64,000 nt of DNA from Haliscomenobacter hydrossis DSM 1100 (GTDB taxonomy: Bacteria > Bacteroidota > Bacteroidia > Chitinophagales > Saprospiraceae). The notes under the pieces are model-generated. The model did no database searches. It was not told the DNA's origin and was given only the letters and a program-made list of their open reading frames with translations. The stretch is taken from positions 5,519,001 to 5,583,000 of the forward strand of contig NC_015510.1 of assembly GCF_000212735.1 (NCBI RefSeq), in the 5' to 3' direction. The position numbers were made by a program, and so were the translations under genes. Position 1 is the stretch's first letter; every line of letters starts with the position of its first letter. Of the stretch, positions 7,252-60,938 are shown in pieces.

Positions 7252-7483
7252 GGTTTACACACCTCTTTTTAGGTTGAATTTAAAATTGTGCTTTTGCCCA
7301 GGAACCCCCGACCCCTAAAGGGAAGTACATTATTGGTTAGCTGAAAATGCTACTTTTTAGGCTCAAAAAAGCCGTTTTCGATTGCCCGAAAATGTACTCC
7401 CCTTTAGGGGTCGGGGGTTCTTAGGCGTAGGTAAAATGCTCAATGTCAACCACAAAAATGATTTTGTAAAGAGGTGTGTACAT
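7252..7483. repeat. Nested long inverted repeat
   Basis: The 347-base gap between the DUF5123-type gene and the GH43 gene holds this foldback structure. Inner arms are 7300-7331 and 7391-7422: GGAACCCCCGACCCCTAAAG is mirrored by CTTTAGGGGTCGGGGGTTC, and the identity continues into AGTACATT/AATGTACT. Outer arms are TTTACACACCTCTTT (from 7252) and AAAGAGGTGTGTAC (from 7468). The loop carries a small hairpin (GGCTCAAAAAAGCC). No open reading frame is credible here. It may be a palindromic repeat-family copy or an RNA structure separating the SusCD block from the GH43 gene. Confidence 0.75.
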
Positions 7484-11149: not shown

Positions 11150-11923
11150 ATGATGAATACGGAAAGTGGATTTAGGCTGGATGGAAAGTTGGCGCTCGTC
11201 ACGGGGTGTAATCGGGGCATTGGCCGGGGCATGGCCGAAGGGCTGGCCGAAGCCGGAGCTGACATCATTGGTGTATCCTCCAGTTTGGGATTGGAAGGCA
11301 GTGAAATTGGCGATTATGTGCAGTCACTGGGGCGCAAATTTTACCCTTATCAGGCCGATTTCAGCCAAAGAGATACACTGTATGACTTCATCAATAAAGT
11401 AAAGCAGGATTTCCCAGTCATCGACATCCTGATCAACAACGCGGGCACCATCATGCGCAAACCCGCCGCCGAACACCCGGATGAATATTGGGATCGGGTC
11501 ATCGAAATCAACCTCAACTCCCAATTTGTACTTGCCCGCGAAATCGGTAAAGATATGGTGGCTCGTGGCAGTGGAAAGATCATCTTCACCGCTTCGTTGT
11601 TGTCCTTTCAAGGCGGGATCACCGTACCCGGTTATGCGGCCAGCAAAGGCGCGATTGCCAGTTTGATCAAAGCCCTCGCCAACGAATGGGCGGGCCAAGG
11701 AGTCAACGTCAACGGTATTGCGCCGGGCTACATCGCCACCGACAACACCGAAGCCCTGCGCAACGACCCCGTACGCAGCAAAACCATCCTGGATCGCATC
11801 CCGGCTGGCCGTTGGGGCGAACCCGCAGACTTCAAAGGCCCGGTCGTCTTTTTGGCTTCCGAGGCTTCCAGTTATGTAAATGGCACCATCTTGACCGTTG
11901 ACGGCGGTTGGATGGGACGATAA
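11150..11923 (+). CDS. kduD: 2-dehydro-3-deoxy-D-gluconate 5-dehydrogenase (KduD), SDR family
   Basis: A 257-residue cytosolic short-chain dehydrogenase that reduces 2,5-diketo-3-deoxygluconate to 2-keto-3-deoxygluconate, the step after KduI. The nucleotide-binding motif TGCNRGIGRG, the NNAG motif (DILINNAGTI) and the catalytic YxxxK (Tyr162, Lys166 in YAASKGA) are all present. Length and C-terminus (VNGTILTVDGGWMGR) are typical. It is followed by kduI, separated only by an iterated GAACCCC repeat, which supports the kduD assignment over other sugar dehydrogenases. Confidence 0.92.
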   Translation: MMNTESGFRLDGKLALVTGCNRGIGRGMAEGLAEAGADIIGVSSSLGLEGSEIGDYVQSLGRKFYPYQADFSQRDTLYDFINKVKQDFPVIDILINNAGTIMRKPAAEHPDEYWDRVIEINLNSQFVLAREIGKDMVARGSGKIIFTASLLSFQGGITVPGYAASKGAIASLIKALANEWAGQGVNVNGIAPGYIATDNTEALRNDPVRSKTILDRIPAGRWGEPADFKGPVVFLASEASSYVNGTILTVDGGWMGR

Positions 11924-11928
11924 AAGAG

Positions 11929-12041
11929 GGGGGGTGAGGGTTCGGGGGTTCGAAGGTTCGGGAGTTCGAGGGTTGCACTGGACTTCCTCAAAACCCCGAA
12001 CTACGAACCCTCGAACCCCCGAACTACGAACCCCCGAACCC
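11929..12041. repeat. Intercistronic GAACCCCCGAA-type repeat cluster, copy A
   Basis: The whole kduD-kduI gap is built from short units GGGTTCGGGGGTTCG on the left and their reverse complement (CCCCGAACTACGAA, CCCTCGAACCCCC) on the right, with a short non-repeat centre (GCACTGGACTTCC). It can fold into a long hairpin. It begins 5 bases after the kduD stop and ends about 17 bases before the kduI start. Related clusters lie at 39616, 41173 and 42280. Confidence 0.85.
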
Positions 12042-12057
12042 TTTCAACTTAAAAAAT

Positions 12058-13993: not shown

Positions 13994-14080
13994 ATGGGAG
14001 CGCGGATGACGCGGATTAAGCGGATTTACGCTGATCAAATCCGTGTAAATCCGCTTGATCCGCGTCATCCGCGCTCCCAT
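13994..14080. repeat. Near-perfect 36-bp inverted repeat
   Basis: Arms 13994-14029 and 14045-14080 (ATGGGAGCGCGGATGACGCG... mirrored) match at 35 of 36 positions; the one difference still allows a G-U pair in RNA. The loop is 15 bases (GCTGATCAAATCC with edges). It starts 12 bases after the PL10 stop and ends 42 bases before the CE12-GH28 start. It could be a REP-like repeat or a transcript-stabilising stem. Confidence 0.9.
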
Positions 14081-16533: not shown

Positions 16534-16669
16534 TTTTCAACACGACGGCGCGACGAAACGACGACACGACGTTTTGTGCGCTTCGCGCTCAATGGACACG
16601 ACGCATCGCGTCGTGTTATAGCGGTAGCTACCGTCGTGCCGTCGTTTCGTCGCGCCGTCGTGTTGAAAA
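16534..16669. repeat. Long palindrome with internal hairpins
   Basis: Arms 16534-16571 and 16632-16669 (TTTTCAACACGACGGCGCGA... mirrored as ...TCGCGCCGTCGTGTTGAAAA) match over 38 bases with one mismatch. Between them lie smaller stems such as CACGACGCATCGCGTCGTG (16597-16615), and GCAGCGAAGCTGC follows at about 16674. It fills most of the gap between the CE12-GH28 gene and the esterase gene. No gene is credible here. Confidence 0.85.
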
Positions 16670-36442: not shown

Positions 36443-37963
36443 ATGGAATATTTATCCCGAGACTTCGTGTCATCTCAAAATGGTCAGCACATTTTACCGC
36501 AGGAACCCAGTTCCCTGCCGGAAAAAGTGTTGCAATTCGGCACGGGTGTATTGTTGAGGGGCTTACCCGATTTGCTCATTGACGAAGCCAATCGCCAGGG
36601 GATTTTTAATGGCAGCATTGTGGTGGTTAAATCAACCAGTTCGGGAGATACCGCAGAGTTTGATCAACAAGACAATTTATATACCGTTTGTATTCGCGGT
36701 GTGCAAGATGCAGCGCGCGTGGAGCAAAACGTAGTGTGCAGTGCCATTAGCAGGGTCTTAACCGCCAACACCCAGTGGGATGAAATTTTGGCTTGCGCCA
36801 AAAATCCCGCTTTGGAAATTGTCATTTCCAATACCACTGAAGTAGGCATCAAGCTGGTCAAAGAAGACATTCACCAAACGCCGCCAGCTTCTTTTCCGGG
36901 CAAATTACTGGCCTTTTTGTACGCCCGTTACCAGGCCTTTGCTGGCGATCCAAACAAGGGTTTGATCATTACCCCCACCGAATTGATTCCAGACAATGGC
37001 GATAAGCTAGAACGTATTTTACTCGAATTGGCGCACCTCAATAACCTGGAAGCCGATTTTATCGACTGGATGGAACAGCACAATCATTGTTGCAATACCC
37101 TGGTAGACCGCATCGTACCGGGCAAACCCGCCGCAGACGTCAAAGCCGATATTGAAACCCAATTGGGTTATCGCGATGATTTGCTCATCATGTCGGAGGT
37201 ATACGCCCTGTGGGCCATTGAAGGAGATGAGTACGTAAAAACCAGGTTTCCATTGCACCTCGCTCACGAAGGCGTCATCATCGCACCCGACATCAATCCA
37301 TACCGGGAGCTCAAACTGCGGATTCTCAACGGGGGGCATACTTTTACCTGTGGTTTGGCTTATTTGTGCGGGCTGGACACCGTAGTGGAAGGGATGAACC
37401 ATCCACTTTTTGCCCATTTTATCGAGCACCTCTTGTTGGATGAAATCGCCCCAACCATTCCGCAACCCCTGACCCAGGCTGAGGCACAAACTTTTGCCAA
37501 AAAAGTACTCGACCGCTTCCGCAATCCATTCATCGAACACAAATGGCTCAGCATCACGATGCAGTACAGTTCAAAGATGCAAATGCGCAACGTGCCGACC
37601 ATTTTGCGGTACTACGATTCTCTGGGAATGGTACCCGAACACATGGCTTTTGGTTTTGCGGCCTATCTGCTGTTTTTGCGGGTGGTCAAAACCGAAGAAG
37701 GGCGCTTTTACGGGCAGCGCAACGGTGTGGATTATCTGATTCAAGATGATCAGGCCGCCTATTTTTACACCATGTGGCAAAACTTTTCGACCCGCGCCCT
37801 GGTGAGTGCCGTTTTGAAAAATGAAGACTTGTGGGGCACCGATCTCAGCCTGTTAAATGGCTTTGAAGAAAAAGTTGCTTTTCACCTGGAAGCTATGAAA
37901 GATCGTGGAGTTTCCCGTACTTTGGAGAACTTTTCACACATTGCGCAAGCAGCTCAGTCATGA
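36443..37963 (+). CDS. uxaB: Tagaturonate reductase / altronate oxidoreductase
   Basis: A 506-residue cytosolic NADH-dependent mannitol-dehydrogenase-family enzyme reducing tagaturonate to altronate. Seen: an N-terminal nucleotide-binding part (VLQFGTGVLLRGLPDLLIDEAN), the EIVISNTTEVGI block, and the LRILNGGHTFTCGLAYLCG motif with the family's catalytic region. The ATG at 36443 was chosen over 36395, which overlaps the kdgF stop and has no similarity. Its 3' end overlaps uxaA by 4 bases (ATGA), so the two are translationally coupled. Confidence 0.93.
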   Translation: MEYLSRDFVSSQNGQHILPQEPSSLPEKVLQFGTGVLLRGLPDLLIDEANRQGIFNGSIVVVKSTSSGDTAEFDQQDNLYTVCIRGVQDAARVEQNVVCSAISRVLTANTQWDEILACAKNPALEIVISNTTEVGIKLVKEDIHQTPPASFPGKLLAFLYARYQAFAGDPNKGLIITPTELIPDNGDKLERILLELAHLNNLEADFIDWMEQHNHCCNTLVDRIVPGKPAADVKADIETQLGYRDDLLIMSEVYALWAIEGDEYVKTRFPLHLAHEGVIIAPDINPYRELKLRILNGGHTFTCGLAYLCGLDTVVEGMNHPLFAHFIEHLLLDEIAPTIPQPLTQAEAQTFAKKVLDRFRNPFIEHKWLSITMQYSSKMQMRNVPTILRYYDSLGMVPEHMAFGFAAYLLFLRVVKTEEGRFYGQRNGVDYLIQDDQAAYFYTMWQNFSTRALVSAVLKNEDLWGTDLSLLNGFEEKVAFHLEAMKDRGVSRTLENFSHIAQAAQS

Positions 37964-39615
37964 AAAACAAGATATTAAAGGTACATCCTCAAGACAATGT
38001 TATTGTAGCCCTGACCAACCTCGTGGCGGGTGAAACGGTTCAACTCGGAACCGAAACATATGTCGTATTGGAAGACGTTTCGGCCAAGCATAAATTTGCC
38101 ACCGAAGACCTGCAAATTGGTGATGAAGTGACCATGTACGGCGTCTTGGTGGGTAAAGCACAAACGCCCATTTTTCGGGGTGGTTTGATCAGTACCGCCA
38201 ACCTTAAACACGCCGCGGGTACCTATCAACTGGGGGAACAAAGAAGCAACTGGCCGGCACCACAAGTGAATGGCTTCCGTGAACGTAGTTTCCAGGGTTA
38301 TCACCGGGCCGACGGCAAAGTGGGAACGGCTAACTACTGGATCGTCATTCCCCTGGTTTTTTGCGAAAACCGCAACCTCGAAGTACTGCGCGAAGCCCTG
38401 GTTGATGACCTGGGTTATGGCCGCAAACACAGCTACCGGCGACAAACCCGCGAACTCGTCAGTTTGCTGCGGGCGGGCAAATCGGTGGAAGATATTCTAC
38501 ATGCCGATCTCGATGTTGAAACCGCAACCTTTGCCAAAAATGACCGCTTGTTTCCGAATGTGGACGGCGTGAAATTCCTCACCCACGATGGCGGCTGCGG
38601 CGGTACACGTCAAGATGCACAAGCCCTTTGTGGCTTACTGGCGGGTTACATCGTACACCCCAACGTGGCGGGCGCAACGGTTCTGAGCCTGGGTTGCCAA
38701 AACGCCCAGGTTGCCATGCTCAAAGAAGAAATTGCCAAGCGGGATCCCCAACTGGCCAAACCTTTATACGTTCTTGAACAACAAACGGTCGGTACGGAAT
38801 CGGCCCTGATCAGTGAAGCCCTTAAAATGACTTTTGCGGGTTTGATGCAGGCCAATCAAATTACGCGCCAACCTGCGCCGATCAGCAAAATATGCCTGGG
38901 GCTGGAATGCGGTGGATCGGATGGATTTTCGGGTATATCAGCCAATCCTACCGTGGGGTATACTTCAGATTTGCTGGTCACTTTGGGTGGTTCGGTGATC
39001 CTTTCGGAGTTCCCCGAATTGTGTGGCGTGGAACAAGAATTGTGTGACCGTTGCGTTGATCCACCCACGGCTCAGCGTTTTTCGGAACTCATGTACACCT
39101 ACAACGAGCGGGCCAAAGCGGTGGGTTCAGGTTTTGACATGAACCCTTCGCCGGGCAACATCAAGGACGGATTGATCACCGATGCCATCAAGTCGGCGGG
39201 CGCGGCCAAAAAAGGAGGTACTTCGCCCGTTACAGCGGTGCTGGATTACCCCGAAATGGTGAACAAACCCGGCCTCAATTTGCTCTGCACCCCGGGCAAC
39301 GACGTGGAATCTACCACAGCAGAGGTCGGCTCCGGGGCAAATGTAGTGGTTTTCACCACGGGCTTGGGTACCCCTACCGGGAACCCCATCGCACCCGTCA
39401 TCAAAATTGCCACCAATACGGCCTTGGCGCGCCGCATGCCCGATATCATTGATTTTAACACGGGCTCCATCATCGAAGGCGACGAAACCATCGAAGAAGC
39501 GGGCAAACGTTTATTGGAGTACGTCATCGCTGTAGCCAGTGGTGAAATTGAAGTGGCTGCAGTAAGACACGGACAGGATGATTTTATTCCCTGGAAGCGG
39601 GGAGTTTCTTTGTAG
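37960..39615 (+). CDS. uxaA: Altronate dehydratase
   Basis: A 551-residue full-length UxaA, which dehydrates altronate to 2-keto-3-deoxygluconate. The N-terminal SAF domain covers about 1-95 and the catalytic domain the rest: TANYWIVIPLVFCENRN, THDGGCGGTRQDA, LGLECGGSDGFSGISANP and NMNPSPGNIKDGLIT-like DMNPSPGNIKDGL are family signatures, with conserved cysteines expected to bind an iron centre. It overlaps uxaB by 4 bases; after it comes repeat cluster B and then uxaC. Confidence 0.95.
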   Translation: MKNKILKVHPQDNVIVALTNLVAGETVQLGTETYVVLEDVSAKHKFATEDLQIGDEVTMYGVLVGKAQTPIFRGGLISTANLKHAAGTYQLGEQRSNWPAPQVNGFRERSFQGYHRADGKVGTANYWIVIPLVFCENRNLEVLREALVDDLGYGRKHSYRRQTRELVSLLRAGKSVEDILHADLDVETATFAKNDRLFPNVDGVKFLTHDGGCGGTRQDAQALCGLLAGYIVHPNVAGATVLSLGCQNAQVAMLKEEIAKRDPQLAKPLYVLEQQTVGTESALISEALKMTFAGLMQANQITRQPAPISKICLGLECGGSDGFSGISANPTVGYTSDLLVTLGGSVILSEFPELCGVEQELCDRCVDPPTAQRFSELMYTYNERAKAVGSGFDMNPSPGNIKDGLITDAIKSAGAAKKGGTSPVTAVLDYPEMVNKPGLNLLCTPGNDVESTTAEVGSGANVVVFTTGLGTPTGNPIAPVIKIATNTALARRMPDIIDFNTGSIIEGDETIEEAGKRLLEYVIAVASGEIEVAAVRHGQDDFIPWKRGVSL

Positions 39616-39744
39616 GGTTTGAGGGTTCGGGGGTTTGAGGGTTTAGAGCGACATACCCCCCGAACCCCCGAACTACGAACCCCCGAACCCCCGAACTACG
39701 AACCCCCGAACCCCCGAACCCCCGAACCCCCGAACCTTCGAACC
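39616..39744. repeat. Intercistronic GAACCCCCGAA-type repeat cluster, copy B
   Basis: The uxaA-uxaC gap consists of GGGTTTGAGGGTTCGGGGG units on the left and a longer run of CCCCCGAACCCCCGAACTACG units on the right, about six repeats. It starts directly after the uxaA stop and ends 9 bases before the uxaC ATG. An open frame starting at 39619 reads through it into uxaC, but its proline/arginine-rich leader is a repeat artefact. Confidence 0.9.
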
Positions 39745-39753
39745 ATAAAACAT

Positions 39754-41172
39754 ATGAGCACCTTAACTACTACGCGTTCCTTCCTCACCGAGGATTTTCT
39801 GCTGCAAACTGAGTCGGCGCGGCTGCTCTACCATGAGTATGCCCATGAAATGCCCATCATTGATTACCACAACCACTTGCCACCGCAAGAGATTGCCGAA
39901 GACAAATGCTTTGACAACCTGACCCAGGCCTGGTTGTACGGCGACCACTACAAATGGCGGGCCATGCGCACCAATGGCATCTCGGAAGACTTTTGCACCG
40001 GAGGCAAGTCCGATTACGAAAAATTTGAACAGTGGGCAGCAACCGTTCCCTATACGCTGCGGAACCCTCTTTATCATTGGACGCACCTGGAATTGAAGCG
40101 TTATTTCGATATTGATGAATTACTTTCTCCAAGTACAGCACGCTCCATTTATGAGGAATGTAGTGCCAAGTTGCGCACCCCTGATTATTCGGTGCGGAAA
40201 TTGTTGAGCAAAATGAATGTTAAGGTGCTTTGTACCACCGACGATCCCGTGGATTCACTGGAATACCACCAGGCCATCGCCGATGATGGCTTTGAGGTAC
40301 GGGTTTTACCCGCATTCCGTCCCGACAAAGCCATGGCGGTAGATAACCCCGAAACGTTTAATCAATACGTGGCGCGTTTGGAAAAAGCCGCGGATACTTC
40401 CATCGAAAACTTCAACCATTTTCTGGATGCCCTTAAAAATCGCCACGATTACTTCGCCAGCAAAGGGGCACAGGTATCGGATCACGGGTTGGAGGTGATT
40501 TACGCGGAAGACTACACGGAAGCGGAAATCAAAGGCATTTTTACCAAAATCCGTGACGGCCATACGTTGGAACAGACCGAAATCCTCAAGTTTAAATCGG
40601 CTATGCTGGTGTATTTCGGGATTTGGGACTGGGAAAAAAACTGGACGCAACAATTCCATTTGGGGGCATTGCGCAACAATAACTCACGCATGTTGCGCCA
40701 ATTGGGGCCAGATACGGGTTGGGATTCCATCGGCGATTTTCCTCAGGGACGTTCCTTATCCAAATTCCTCGATCGCCTGGACAGCAACAACCAATTGGCC
40801 AAAACCATTTTGTACAACCTCAACCCTGGCGACAATGAACTGATTGCGACCATGGTGGGTAACTTTAACGATGGTTCCATTGCAGGTAAAGTGCAATTTG
40901 GCTCGGGCTGGTGGTTCATGGATCAAAAAGACGGCATGGAACGACAAATGAACACCTTGTCCAACATGGGTTTGTTGAGCAAGTTTGTGGGCATGTTGAC
41001 CGATTCCCGCAGTTTCTTGTCTTACCCCCGCCATGAGTACTTCCGCCGGATTTTGTGCAACCTCTTTGGTCAGGACATCGACAACGGTGAGTTGCCACGC
41101 GATTACGAATGGATTGGAAAAGTGGTGCAGGATATTTGTTACAATAACGCGAAAAACTACTTTAGATTTTAG
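39754..41172 (+). CDS. uxaC: Glucuronate/galacturonate isomerase
   Basis: A 472-residue amidohydrolase-fold isomerase turning galacturonate into tagaturonate, the first step of the saturated branch. Family signatures: IIDYHNHLPPQEIAED with the metal-binding histidines, VKVLCTTDDPVDSLEYH, the AFRPDKAMAVDNPE block and SDSRS-like LTDSRSFLSYPRHEYFRRILC. The start MSTLTT at 39754 follows repeat cluster B. Full length and undamaged. Confidence 0.95.
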   Translation: MSTLTTTRSFLTEDFLLQTESARLLYHEYAHEMPIIDYHNHLPPQEIAEDKCFDNLTQAWLYGDHYKWRAMRTNGISEDFCTGGKSDYEKFEQWAATVPYTLRNPLYHWTHLELKRYFDIDELLSPSTARSIYEECSAKLRTPDYSVRKLLSKMNVKVLCTTDDPVDSLEYHQAIADDGFEVRVLPAFRPDKAMAVDNPETFNQYVARLEKAADTSIENFNHFLDALKNRHDYFASKGAQVSDHGLEVIYAEDYTEAEIKGIFTKIRDGHTLEQTEILKFKSAMLVYFGIWDWEKNWTQQFHLGALRNNNSRMLRQLGPDTGWDSIGDFPQGRSLSKFLDRLDSNNQLAKTILYNLNPGDNELIATMVGNFNDGSIAGKVQFGSGWWFMDQKDGMERQMNTLSNMGLLSKFVGMLTDSRSFLSYPRHEYFRRILCNLFGQDIDNGELPRDYEWIGKVVQDICYNNAKNYFRF

Positions 41173-41279
41173 GGTTCGGGAGTTCGGGGGTTCGTGAACC
41201 GCACCTCGGCTTCGCTCGGCGACCGGTTCACGAACTCCCGAACCCTCGAACCCTCGAACCCTCGAACCCTCGAACCTTC
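41173..41279. repeat. Intercistronic GAACCCCCGAA-type repeat cluster, copy C
   Basis: The uxaC-kdgK gap. GGGTTCGGGAGTTCGGGGG begins directly after the uxaC stop; the right half is iterated CCCTCGAACCCTCGAA ending 1 base before the kdgK ATG. The centre holds a perfect hairpin, GTTCGTGAACCG...CGGTTCACGAAC, and a TCGGCTTCGCTCGG stem-like core. Confidence 0.9.
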
Positions 41280-41280
41280 T

Positions 41281-42279
41281 ATGAAAAAAGTCGTCACCTT
41301 CGGAGAGATCATGATGCGCCTGAACACCCCCGGCCATCAACGTTTTTTGCAGGCCCGTAATTTGGAAGTTACTTATGGAGGTGGCGAAGCCAACGTATCC
41401 GTAGCACTGTCCCAACTGGGCGTGCCTTCCCGTCACGTCACCTGTTTTCCCGACAATGACCTCGGGCGTGCTGCCACCGCCTTCTATCGCCAACATGGAG
41501 TAGATTTTGACCGTACGGTGTACCATGGTCAACGATTGGGCTTGTATTTTTTGGAGGTGGGCGCAGGGATGCGCCCTTCACGCATCATTTACGACCGTTA
41601 TGACAGCGCCTTTGCCAAAATGGATCCGGCAGCTTTTGACTGGGATGACCTCTTGTCCGATGCTTGCTGGTTTCACTGGACGGGCATTACGCCTGCCATA
41701 TCGGACAATGCTGCGGTGGTCTGTTTGCAGGCATTGGAAACCGCCAGCCGCCTGGGCATCCCCGTCAGTGCCGATGTGAACTACCGCCGCAACCTCTGGC
41801 AGTATGGCAAAACCGTGCAAGAGGTGATGCCCGCTCTGGTTGAACACTGCGACGTGATGGTTTGTACCGAAGGCGACGCCAAAGATATTTTTGGCATGGA
41901 AACCACGGGTTTTCAAGACATGGCGGAACAAATGCTCGCGCGTTTTCCAAATGCCCAAAGCATCATTGCCACCCGCCGGGATACCTTGAGTGCCAGCCAC
42001 AACCGCTTGACTGGCATTGGGTTTTCCCATAAAGCGGGGTATAGCGAAACCGAAACTTACGACATCAACCCGATCGTCGACCGCATCGGAGGAGGCGACT
42101 CTTTCATCGCAGGATACATCTACGGTCGCCTGAATTTGTCCAACGAACTGGATGCCCTGAGCTTCGGCACCGCTGCCTCCGCTTTAAAGCACATGGTGGA
42201 AGGCGATTTTGCCCAACACTCAGTGGGAGAAGTGGAGCAGATTTTGGCGGGGGATGTGTCGGGGAGATTGTTAAGATAG
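41281..42279 (+). CDS. kdgK: 2-keto-3-deoxygluconate kinase (PfkB family)
   Basis: A 332-residue sugar kinase phosphorylating 2-keto-3-deoxygluconate to KDPG. The N-terminal signature TFGEIMMRLNTPGHQRF and YGGGEANVSVALSQLG, the VNYRRNLW segment and the C-terminal catalytic motif DRIGGGDSFIAGYIYG are all as in the family. The start at 41281 is used; a longer frame from 41194 would translate repeat cluster C and is rejected. It feeds KdgA, the next gene. Confidence 0.93.
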   Translation: MKKVVTFGEIMMRLNTPGHQRFLQARNLEVTYGGGEANVSVALSQLGVPSRHVTCFPDNDLGRAATAFYRQHGVDFDRTVYHGQRLGLYFLEVGAGMRPSRIIYDRYDSAFAKMDPAAFDWDDLLSDACWFHWTGITPAISDNAAVVCLQALETASRLGIPVSADVNYRRNLWQYGKTVQEVMPALVEHCDVMVCTEGDAKDIFGMETTGFQDMAEQMLARFPNAQSIIATRRDTLSASHNRLTGIGFSHKAGYSETETYDINPIVDRIGGGDSFIAGYIYGRLNLSNELDALSFGTAASALKHMVEGDFAQHSVGEVEQILAGDVSGRLLR

Positions 42280-42372
42280 GGTTCGGGGGTTCGAGGTTCG
42301 AAGGTTCGAGGGTTGGGAGCATTGCTCTTGGCCCTCGAACCCCGAACCCCCGACCCCCCGAACCCCCGAACC
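42280..42372. repeat. Intercistronic GAACCCCCGAA-type repeat cluster, copy D
   Basis: The kdgK-kdgA gap. GGTTCGGGGGTTCGAGGTTCG begins directly after the kdgK TAG and is mirrored by CCTCGAACCCCGAACCCCCG at the right end, around a core GAGCATTGCTC. It stops about 9 bases before the kdgA ATG. Confidence 0.9.
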
Positions 42373-42381
42373 TAAAAAATT

Positions 42382-43047
42382 ATGCCTAGATTCACCATTC
42401 AACAAATACACGAAAAACTCGAGGCCTCACCGGTAGTACCCCTGTTTTTCCATGCCGAAGCTGCTTATGCCCAAAAGTTACTCGACGCCTGTTATCAAGG
42501 CGGCTTGCGGGCTTTTGAGTTTACCAACCGGGGGGCCAATGCCGCGGCTACTTTTGCCCAACTCAGCAAACACGTTGCCGCCAATTTGCCCGATTTGGCC
42601 TTGGGCATTGGGACCATATACCGCCCTGAAGAAGCCGAACAGTTTTTGGATTTGGGCGCAGATTTTATCATTCAGCCCATCATCACCGCTGCGGTGGGGG
42701 AAGTTTGCAAGCGCAATCAGGTAGCCTGGATGCCCGGCGCACTGACCCCCAATGAGGTGTATCAAGCCCACATTTTAGGCGCTGATATTGTGAAGATTTT
42801 TCCTGGTGATGCCGTTGGGCCAGGGTACATCAAGGCTTTGCGCGGGCCAATGCCCCAGATAAAACTCATGGTTACGGGCGGCGTGCAACCCAACGAGGCC
42901 AATTTGCGAGAGTGGTTCAGCGCTGGTGTCAACTACGTAGGCATCGGCTCACAACTGATCAAAAAAGCTGAAGAACTCGGCGTCGCGGGCTTTACTGCCC
43001 ATATTGAGGAACTGATTCAAATTGTCAAAAACATTCGAGGGAGATAG
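42382..43047 (+). CDS. kdgA: KDPG/KHG aldolase
   Basis: A 221-residue class I aldolase splitting KDPG into pyruvate and glyceraldehyde-3-phosphate, the last step of the pathway. The Schiff-base lysine is in ADIVKIFPGDAVGPGY; FEFTNRGANA, LALGIGTI and MVTGGVQPNEANL are typical active-site and phosphate-binding segments. Ortholog of the E. coli Eda product. The ATG at 42382 directly follows repeat cluster D. Confidence 0.93.
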   Translation: MPRFTIQQIHEKLEASPVVPLFFHAEAAYAQKLLDACYQGGLRAFEFTNRGANAAATFAQLSKHVAANLPDLALGIGTIYRPEEAEQFLDLGADFIIQPIITAAVGEVCKRNQVAWMPGALTPNEVYQAHILGADIVKIFPGDAVGPGYIKALRGPMPQIKLMVTGGVQPNEANLREWFSAGVNYVGIGSQLIKKAEELGVAGFTAHIEELIQIVKNIRGR

Positions 43048-43063
43048 CTCCAGCTGAAATTAC

Positions 43064-43119
43064 TTTTCAACCCTAAACCCTCCAACTTTTCAACCCTAAA
43101 CCCTTCAACTTTTCAACTT
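43064..43119. repeat. Short tandem repeat, 23-base period
   Basis: TTTTCAACCCTAAACCCT followed by CCAAC or TCAAC repeats at 43064 and 43087, with a partial third copy at 43110. It fills the gap between kdgA and the transporter gene and differs in unit from the GAACCCC clusters before the other genes. Confidence 0.8.
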
Positions 43120-43137
43120 AAAAAAAACTACTACATC

Positions 43138-45578: not shown

Positions 45579-45636
45579 GGTATTTAGTTTTAGTTTTTAT
45601 GTATACAAAAATTAGCGTTATAAAGTTCCCAAGGAG

Positions 45637-45787
45637 CGGAAATGAAATAAAGTAAACGGATTGACTTGGCTATTTTTTGATTTGGCAAGGCAAGAGGAAG
45701 GCGCATAGTGCACTACGCAACTGACGAGTAACGCAGCAAAATCAACAAAGAGCTTGTCAAGTGTTTACTTTAGTTTATTTCCGTTCC
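45637..45787. repeat. Imperfect inverted repeat in a divergent gap
   Basis: CGGAAATGAAATAAAGTAAAC (45637 on) is matched in inverse by GTGTTTACTTTAGTTTATTTCCG (45760-45783), with further pairing TTGAC/GTCAA. The interior carries GCGCATAGTGCACTACGC. It lies in the 317-base gap between the divergent lectin-like and DUF3472-type genes and may be a MITE-like element or a regulatory dyad. No gene is seen here. Confidence 0.6.
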
Positions 45788-60802: not shown

Positions 60803-60938
60803 TTTTGAGTGACGAGTTCAGAGTACATGAGTTTAGAGGTTAGAAGTGAGCTACCGCAGCGACTTAGACATAGCGCTAGTATAAATCGCTGCGGTAGCTC
60901 ACTTCTAAACTCTGAAGTCATGTGTTCTGAACTCAAAA
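60803..60938. repeat. Long inverted repeat after the dioxygenase gene
   Basis: The core arms TTAGAAGTGAGCTACCGCAG plus CGA (60840-60862) and their exact mirror (60886-60908) are 23 bases each; outer stretches GAGTTCAGA and TCTGAACTC extend it with interruptions. The rest of the 369-base gap up to the next DUF418 gene shows nothing recognisable. Confidence 0.8.

Follow-up and report, generated by a model that had tools for sequence, protein, structure and literature searches.

Why are several genes of a uronate operon in Haliscomenobacter hydrossis DSM 1100 set apart by gaps that consist of short repeats, and what would such repeats do at the end of a gene? The question arises from a window of 64,000 nucleotides (contig NC_015510.1, positions 5,519,001 to 5,583,000, the whole stretch of DNA analysed here), in which a sequence-only reading had noticed four clusters of an octamer. 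Each cluster was said to start just past a stop codon, to end about 1-17 nt before the next start and to consist of left-half units followed by right halves that are their reverse complement. We found the four clusters in place, and both their borders and their mirrored halves can be read directly in all of them. The evidence given below indicates that the clusters are probably dispersed, lineage-specific extragenic palindromes, similar to repetitive extragenic palindromic (REP) sequences, which occupy stop codons and would uncouple neighbouring cistrons.

Architecture of the octamer arrays

The four elements of the window are inverted arrays, in which a G-rich GGTTCRRR arm (GGGTTCGGGGG-type units) is followed by a variable loop and by a C-rich arm that is its reverse complement (Table 1). 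The arrays comprise about 94 to 129 nt, and some units of the C-rich arm are only 7 nt long (GAACTAC). Such 7-mers are found in the element at 39616-39744, whose C-rich 3' arm is far longer than its 5' arm. The proposal that long stems can form is confirmed by RNA folding, since the predicted folds reach -51 to -75 kcal/mol with z-scores of -7.09 to -9.05 (200 shuffles per element). For each of the four elements none of the 200 shuffles was as good, and in most of the arm swaps between elements (see below) the own arms paired better. Within the window, the Rfam 15 covariance models gave no match above the gathering score, and a CRISPR (clustered regularly interspaced short palindromic repeats) array could be ruled out, since there are no spacers between the units.

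The assignment of all four clusters to the uronate operon has to be corrected, because the cluster at 11.9 kb lies between a gene of the short-chain dehydrogenase/reductase (SDR) type and a KduI/IolB gene. The gaps of the operon itself are made of the octamer at three junctions, but not at the junction of the aldolase gene with a gene of the major facilitator superfamily (MFS). This gap (43048-43137) carries a one-armed array of TTCAAC/TAAACCC units and no hairpin with a score of at least 14, the threshold of our window scan. A related, shorter TTCAAC/TAAACCC-like stretch is present at the same junction in a relative (locus L156). At uxaB-uxaA, which had been described as lacking an element, there is indeed none, and the two genes overlap (stop of uxaB at 37963, ATG of uxaA at 37960).

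In the genome of 8,771,651 bases (chromosome: 8,371,686 bases), GAACCCCCGAAC occurs in 647 exact copies (325 + 322), whereas the same pattern read backwards yields 0 + 1. Together with the z-scores of the folds, this excess means that the octamer clusters are not a product of chance. A strand or replichore bias of the motif, one-sided among the matches listed, was dropped from consideration, since a palindrome reads alike on both strands. We then sampled the chromosome in 140 evenly spaced 20-kb stretches (2.8 Mb) and obtained 91 octamer clusters. A pure succession of G-arm and C-arm is present in 78 of them, 8 are one-armed and 5 are mixed; the reverse order, C-arm then G-arm, does not occur alone in any of the 91. 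The spacing between units is mostly 8 nt (479 of 567 cases), less often 7 nt (85/567) and rarely 9 nt (3/567), and the two-armed octamer elements span 51 to 321 nt (61 elements).

The two arms of an element also fit each other individually. When arms were swapped between octamer elements, the own arms paired better in 731 of 887 chimeras, and corresponding swaps in four other hairpin families (see below) favoured the own arms in 196/239, 325/391, 359/408 and 252/323 cases. Rare units were common to both arms 29 times over 59 elements, compared with a mean of 12.1 and a maximum of 22 in 500 shuffles. Presumably both arms of an element remain fitted to each other as their units change, so that the stem would be preserved or formed anew.

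Placement at stop codons

The clusters at 39616, 41173 and 42280 begin with the first base after the stop codon, and the one at 11.9 kb begins 5 nt (at 11929, the edge given by the sequence-only reading) or 13 nt (at 11937, according to our hairpin call) after a stop codon at 11921-11923. On the other side the ATG lies about 1-17 nt beyond the end of the cluster; three elements leave a leader of about 9-17 nt, and the one before kdgK leaves only a few nt.

For the sampled clusters, placement was judged against genes called with our own dicodon model, which predicts 2187 genes (about 2190 expected) and a coding fraction of 0.880, compared with 88.42% in the accessible part of the genome publication (PMC3156403). 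It replaced an earlier gene caller that covered just 0.71 of the sequence. Where a predicted start extended into a cluster, it was shifted to the next ATG, which affected 7 starts. The clusters are not spread at random over genes and gaps, since 81 of the 91 are intergenic, and 75 of these 81 remain clean without any trimming of starts. With a first cluster definition and untrimmed starts, 72 of 92 clusters were intergenic and 20 were not. The 10 clusters left out of the class counts comprise three at tile edges, four that overlap the 3' end of a gene (L052, L072, L079, L093), one near a gene start (L103) and two inside short, low-scoring predicted open reading frames (ORFs; L068, L142). In the four overlapping cases (L052 10727-10815, L072 2494-2606, L079 10546-10746, L093 18383-18568) the predicted reading frame enters the octamer element at its 3' end, and the element may therefore add a C-terminal tail to the protein.

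The intergenic clusters are distributed over 42 (--), 24 (++), 11 convergent and 4 divergent gene pairs, so that 66 of 81 lie between co-directional genes, whereas the background of intergenic regions of at least 60 bp comprises 447 (--), 425 (++), 220 convergent and 306 divergent ones. Gene 3' ends are therefore favoured and gaps on the promoter side are avoided. In 51 of the 66 co-directional clusters the element follows the stop codon at a distance of -1 to 9 nt; the distance is shorter in 5 and longer in 10. Among the co-directional octamer hairpins, 51 of 61 lie at most 10 nt from the stop, compared with 26.6 expected under uniform placement. Even where the gap leaves 60 nt or more unoccupied, 13 of the 16 hairpins lie this close to the stop and 0 of 16 this close to the start (1.7 expected). 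The precise placement that had been claimed for both borders thus holds for the stop codon but not for the start codon: the octamer element is tied to the stop.

The stop codon itself is affected as well. TAG stops account for 36 of the 88 gene ends that adjoin an octamer element and for 457 of the 1981 remaining ones (Fisher p 2.9e-4), and 27 of those 36 TAG stops are the start of the element's own TAGGG-type 5' end (TAG-GGTTC). In the 58 of 88 gene-side 5' ends that could be aligned, T or A is found at position -4 in 48/58 and at -3 in 54/58, A at -2 in 34 and G at -1 in 26.

Related species and other hairpin families

A scan of genome contigs for UxaC returned three loci with proteins that are 90-91% identical to the one from H. 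hydrossis (L154, L155, L156) and more distant ones; the genome G018 of the same genus has a UxaC with 73% identity (locus L153). At L153-L156 and L158 there are isolated octamer words at most and no octamer array. The genes uxaC and kdgK overlap by TAATG in L154 and L155 and are separated by a 3-nt gap in G018; L156 has a hairpin of GGTTCCAG units at this junction and H. hydrossis the octamer element of 108 nt. In H. hydrossis uxaC ends with ...TTTTA, followed by a G that makes the TAG stop (41170-41172), and judged against the relatives this G (41172) would belong to the element. At uxaA-uxaC, L154 carries a GTTGAGG hairpin 2 nt past the same TTTGTAG stop, L155 has a short gap and G018 a gap without significant fold (z -0.19). 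The 3' end of the kinase gene is followed by a GTTGAGG hairpin after 1 nt in L156 and by a CACAAAG hairpin after 63 nt in L155, where the contig stops before the next gene. A GTTATT-unit hairpin stands 1 nt past the uxaC stop in L158. The distance between hairpin and stop thus amounts to 1-2 nt in L154, L156 (both sites) and L158, and to 63 nt in L155. Absence, presence and the use of another family all occur at one gene end. This variation among relatives in presence and hairpin family, together with the intergenic position of most clusters, supports the earlier suggestion of insertion hot spots.

The idea that the octamer is a widespread motif of Bacteroidota is refuted, as the pattern was found in 1 of 395 genomes of the phylum, namely that of H. 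hydrossis. On the level of the family, GAACCCCCGAAC is present in 7 of 61 genomes, with one copy in each of the six others. The GGAACYYT octamer (GGAACCCT pattern) was found in 1 of the 61 (G058, 60 hits) and not in H. hydrossis, and the CTCAACCTYC pattern has 76 hits in H. hydrossis and one hit in one other of the 61. Judging from these counts, the repeat units appear to be lineage-specific. The GGAACCCT units of G058 have the same style as those of the window but other letters, and such a hairpin also stands at uxaC-kdgK in L156.

Long hairpins of other families are frequent in H. hydrossis. Among the intergenic regions with a length of 25-900 nt, 497 of 1585 contained a long hairpin (score of at least 16); none was present in their dinucleotide shuffles (0/1585) or in coding windows (0/1568). 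When the sample was scanned independently of the gene calls (score of at least 18), it yielded 508 hairpins in 2.8 Mb, or 1.81 per 10 kb. At the same score, five loci of the nearest relatives contain 10 hairpins in 29,493 bases, and one 50-kb stretch of Escherichia coli K-12 contains none. At 76 other loci, which are labelled Bacteroidota apart from one Williamsia, we counted 55 hairpins in 1,398,300 bases (0.39 per 10 kb). Besides the octamer, the arms consist of units such as TTGAAAAG, TTGAGG, GTTGAT, GGTTTTA, GACGAAT, CACAGATT, CACAAAG, ACGACAC and GCGGATT, and 17 word families account for 315 of the 497 hairpins. The order of the arms is without exception in 13 of the 17; the exceptions are GTGAAAA (17 and 17), TTGAA (22 and 2), GCGAAAA (10 and 1) and TGCTGAT (2 and 1). 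The mixed polarity of GTGAAAA was not used, since this word probably occurs in other families too. Like the octamer, the TTGAA, TTGAG, GTTGAT, GGTTTTA and GACGAAT families are situated at the stop codon (medians -2 to 5 nt), and when all families are taken together, 104 of 584 gene 3' ends have a stop codon that lies partly or wholly in the stem, whereas the same is true of the start codon for 8 of 410 gene 5' ends. Several loci from Fibrella, Dyadobacter and Arcicella (L169, L180, L186, L190, L193, L195, L222) have hairpins whose arms look tandem but are made of other units; the architecture therefore extends beyond the bacterial family to which H. hydrossis belongs.

The loops of several families contain a 24-nt REP-like core, GGTCGCCGAGCGAAGTCGAGGTGC, and variants of it. 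The 2.8 Mb hold 85 core-like matches, of which 24 are octamer-armed, 46 lie between genes and have at most three GTTC/GAAC words in their vicinity, and 15 lie in predicted genes. A stricter core pattern was found 71 + 69 times in the own genome and 0 times in the 60 other genomes searched. At L061, L081, L143, L146 and others the core is nested in its own loop, as if self-inserting (GAGC-TGGTCACTGAGCGAAGTCGAAGTG-GAGCCGAGG), and at L116 (7880-8000) six head-to-tail copies stand in tandem with a 24-nt period (GGTTGCCGAGCGAAGCCGAGGCAT).

Besides the octamer arrays, the window contains five more long hairpins with scores of 20-38, along with two weak hairpins of score 14. Three of the five match unit families that are found genome-wide (GCGGATT, ACGACAC, CTACCGC).

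Table 1. Repeat elements, long hairpins and genes of the window (KDG, 2-keto-3-deoxygluconate; KDPG, 2-keto-3-deoxy-6-phosphogluconate; KHG, 2-keto-4-hydroxyglutarate)
Feature	Position	Strand	Remarks
Octamer inverted array, SDR gene (stop 11923) / KduI/IolB gene (ATG 12058)	11929..12042	+	-74.9 kcal/mol, z -7.09
Octamer inverted array, uxaA/uxaC	39616..39744	+	After TAG; 5' arm GGTTTGAGGGTTCGGGGG; -51 kcal/mol, z -7.41
Octamer inverted array with REP-like core in loop, uxaC / PfkB KDG-kinase-like gene	41173..41280	+	-59.2 kcal/mol, z -7.11
Core (a), 24 nt, dispersed REP-like palindrome, also with other arm families	41201..41224	-	GGTCGCCGAGCGAAGCCGAGGTGC on - strand
Octamer inverted array, kinase gene / KDPG-aldolase-family gene	42280..42373	+	-66.9 kcal/mol, z -9.05
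One-armed direct array, TTCAAC..TAAACCC units, aldolase-MFS junction	43063..43119	+	No inverted partner
uxaA, altronate hydrolase-like	37960..39615	+	Pfam GD_AH_C 3.3e-96
uxaC, glucuronate isomerase	39754..41172	+	Pfam UxaC 6.5e-211
PfkB-family sugar kinase, kdgK-like (name by context)	41281..42279	+	Pfam PfkB 2.2e-29
KDPG/KHG aldolase	42382..43047	+	Pfam Aldolase 5.2e-32
Long hairpin, GCGGATT unit family	13994..14080	.	Score 35
Long hairpin, ACGACAC unit family	16534..16669	.	Score 35
Long hairpin, inner CTACCGC arm	60814..60934	.	Score 38; ~50 nt past ORF ending 60764
Two further long hairpins	7296-7426; 45633-45787		Window scan

Possible explanations and their consequences

The kinds of repeats described so far that come nearest to these elements are the GTAG-REPs and the GGGAATC arrays of Xanthomonas. 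REPs of the GTAG and CGTC superfamilies are, like the elements described here, dispersed extragenic palindromes near or overlapping gene ends, whose termini often provide a TAG stop; according to the accessible text they are palindromes of 20-40 bp with a tetranucleotide tag (PMC3733652), whereas the octamer elements are two-armed tandem arrays of 7-8-mers with a length of 51-321 nt. The GGGAATC and GGGGAYT heptamers of Xanthomonas and Nostoc resemble them in being tandem, G-rich and short, in their mostly intergenic location and in their frequent position at most 50 bp from the preceding stop codon or across it; two Xanthomonas genomes hold 70 and 75 inverted pairs, and most arrays are transcribed (PMC4692102, accessible part). 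In contrast to the GGGAATC arrays, inverted pairing is the rule in H. hydrossis (78 of 91), the units are mostly 8-mers, and there are several unrelated unit families. Short tandem intergenic arrays are also represented by the short tandemly repeated repetitive (STRR) sequences of heterocystous cyanobacteria, which are typically direct. The TAACTGA repeats of Beggiatoaceae, Cyanobacteria and some Bacteroidetes share the abundance of intergenic heptamer arrays and the strict placement, but in the accessible description they are direct, apart from a single inverted case reported for the genome in question, and lie mostly before starts (PMC4679880), while those studied here are inverted and follow stops. 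Perfect inverted repeats in Bacteria are enriched 50-80 bp past stop codons according to the part of a 2026 survey that is accessible (PMC13155455), and the octamer hairpins are nearer. For the octamer units themselves we found no description in the literature searched: searches with the octamer, the core, six other unit families and descriptive words gave none among the matches listed. In the accessible text of the genome publication, 'repeat' occurs twice, for the CRISPR repeat count and in a reference on finishing (PMC3156403), and that of PMC4853749 mentions H. hydrossis only for metacaspases.

We propose, with some confidence, that the elements are REP-like palindromes of this lineage. 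In each of them a unit of 7-8 nt is repeated in two arrays that mirror each other across a variable loop, which in some cases holds the second, 24-nt palindrome. Copies would settle at gene 3' ends, mostly at most 10 nt from the stop, and would often supply the last base or bases of the stop codon. When transcribed, a hairpin of -51 to -75 kcal/mol would stand behind the terminating ribosome and part cistrons that had formerly overlapped or been closely spaced. Instead of terminating transcription, it would prevent reinitiation, so that the downstream cistron would have to initiate on its own, and would guard the upstream message against exonucleases that attack its 3' end. The comparison of uxaC-kdgK among relatives suggests that an insertion may have uncoupled these two genes. 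In E. coli, structured mRNAs that contain REPs are targets of RNase R with polynucleotide phosphorylase (PNPase), as stated in the accessible part of PMC12320835; the available text of a study on E. coli genes whose stop and start codons overlap (PMC7538156) decides nothing for coupling in the present case.

Several points weigh against this proposal. Only 101 of 497 hairpin arms pass a strict tandem test with periods of 5-15 (shuffled: 4/497; commonest periods 8 with 44 and 7 with 20 cases), and tandem arms are therefore not established for every hairpin. The CACAGATT, CACAAAG, GCGGATT, ACGACAC and GGAGT families are found ~25-70 nt downstream of the stop, and a slight excess of T is seen behind the stems of the non-octamer hairpins (3.27 T on average; six or more in 62/497). 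At the sites compared in L153-L156 a hairpin is present in 4 of 9, which is near the base rate of co-directional regions in H. hydrossis itself (314/1024), so that co-occupation of the same gene ends may be chance. That the empty state of uxaC-kdgK is ancestral is suggested by three empty relatives rather than by a reconstruction, and both translational uncoupling and mRNA protection are themselves inferred. Finally, the genome has seven Y1_Tnp matches, six of them without internal stop, and at the four of these seven Y1-transposase loci that were inspected there are no octamer arrays or cores within ~1.5 kb. As no mobilising enzyme was found at these loci, dispersal could be due to recombination or to local generation of the elements.

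A wider version of the proposal is conceivable, to which we give only tentative credit. The hairpins of all families in Haliscomenobacter and its relatives might form a genome-wide, stop-anchored system in which position and stem are kept and the sequence is free, in which a 7-8 nt unit of the lineage's own is homogenised by hairpin-templated copying, both between the two arms and over hundreds of sites, and which is used to separate cistrons. If true, hairpins that share a stop codon but no homology would be one functional class and not many repeat families.

The hairpins could also be bidirectional terminators, or selected 3'-end hairpins in general, for which any palindrome would serve and unrelated families would be recruited to the same place. 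With this would agree that regions between convergent genes carry long hairpins most often (135 of 249), followed by co-directional (314/1024) and divergent ones (48/312), that related species have different families at the same gene ends, and that the non-octamer hairpins reach six T in the next 10 nt in the stated 62/497 cases, compared with 57/634 in the background. The octamer elements share with Rho-independent terminators the position of a hairpin downstream of genes, but they are very near the stop and inside operons, and their stems are longer. The 10 nt that follow octamer hairpins hold 2.67 T on average (background 2.92), and at least six T in 7 of 87 cases (background 57/634). Furthermore, the accessible part of a study in E. 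coli describes that the ribosome represses a terminator almost completely when it lies a few bp past the stop codon (PMC4824070), and a distance of 0-9 nt falls into this zone. Both results make termination by the octamer hairpins less likely. Since the elements sit inside an operon, and since a fixed order of arms in 13 of 17 word families would not be expected under free recruitment, we regard this explanation as rather unlikely.

We think just as little of the idea that neutral, slippage-prone octamer arrays expand wherever they do no harm, the 3' side of stop codons being the most tolerant site. Slippage yields direct arrays and not matched inverted arms, whereas 78 of the 91 clusters are strictly two-armed with a single polarity, and the element hugs the stop even where there is room to spare (13/16). 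It is true that units two apart within an arm are more often identical (0.375, 272 pairs) than adjacent ones (0.158, 412 pairs) or random pairs (0.17), which is what an expansion by dimers should produce, and arms seem to grow by dimers of about 15-16 nt. The wide variation in arm length, with up to 33 units in the longest arm, and the small number of clusters between divergent genes would fit such an expansion as well.

Classical REP elements, that is GTAG-tagged palindromes mobilised by the Y1 transposase of the REP-associated tyrosine transposase (RAYT) type, are recognised by a linked Y1 transposase gene that is flanked by the repeat. The Y1_Tnp matches of the genome and the recurrence of the 24-nt core with several arm families point in this direction, and so does the supply of TAG stops, which is known for GTAG REPs (PMC3733652, accessible part). 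Nevertheless, a GTAG tag is not enriched (G at the first position, -4, in 7 of 58 aligned octamer 5' ends), several unit families are found in one genome, the elements are far longer than 20-40 bp, and the four Y1 genes inspected have no adjoining octamer array or core, so that this origin seems very improbable to us.

The least probable explanation, that the elements act as G-quadruplexes (G4) in DNA or RNA, as proposed for the GGGAATC arrays, has in its favour the G-rich 5' arm and a canonical G4 motif (a sequence motif only) on either strand in 34 of 81 elements, but the sense strand carries it in only 13 of 66 co-directional elements, and G runs are missing from families that are built in the same way, for instance TTGAAAAG and CACAGATTTT.

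For H. hydrossis, the survey means that a long palindrome is present in roughly one in three of the intergenic regions sampled (25-900 nt), in many cases at a stop codon. If the elements uncouple cistrons, the invasion of the genome by these repeats would have re-set the balance of many operons, for instance that of the uronate pathway, and the history of the insertions could be read by comparing species. They also pose the question of what keeps the two tandem-array arms complementary while the unit changes genome-wide.

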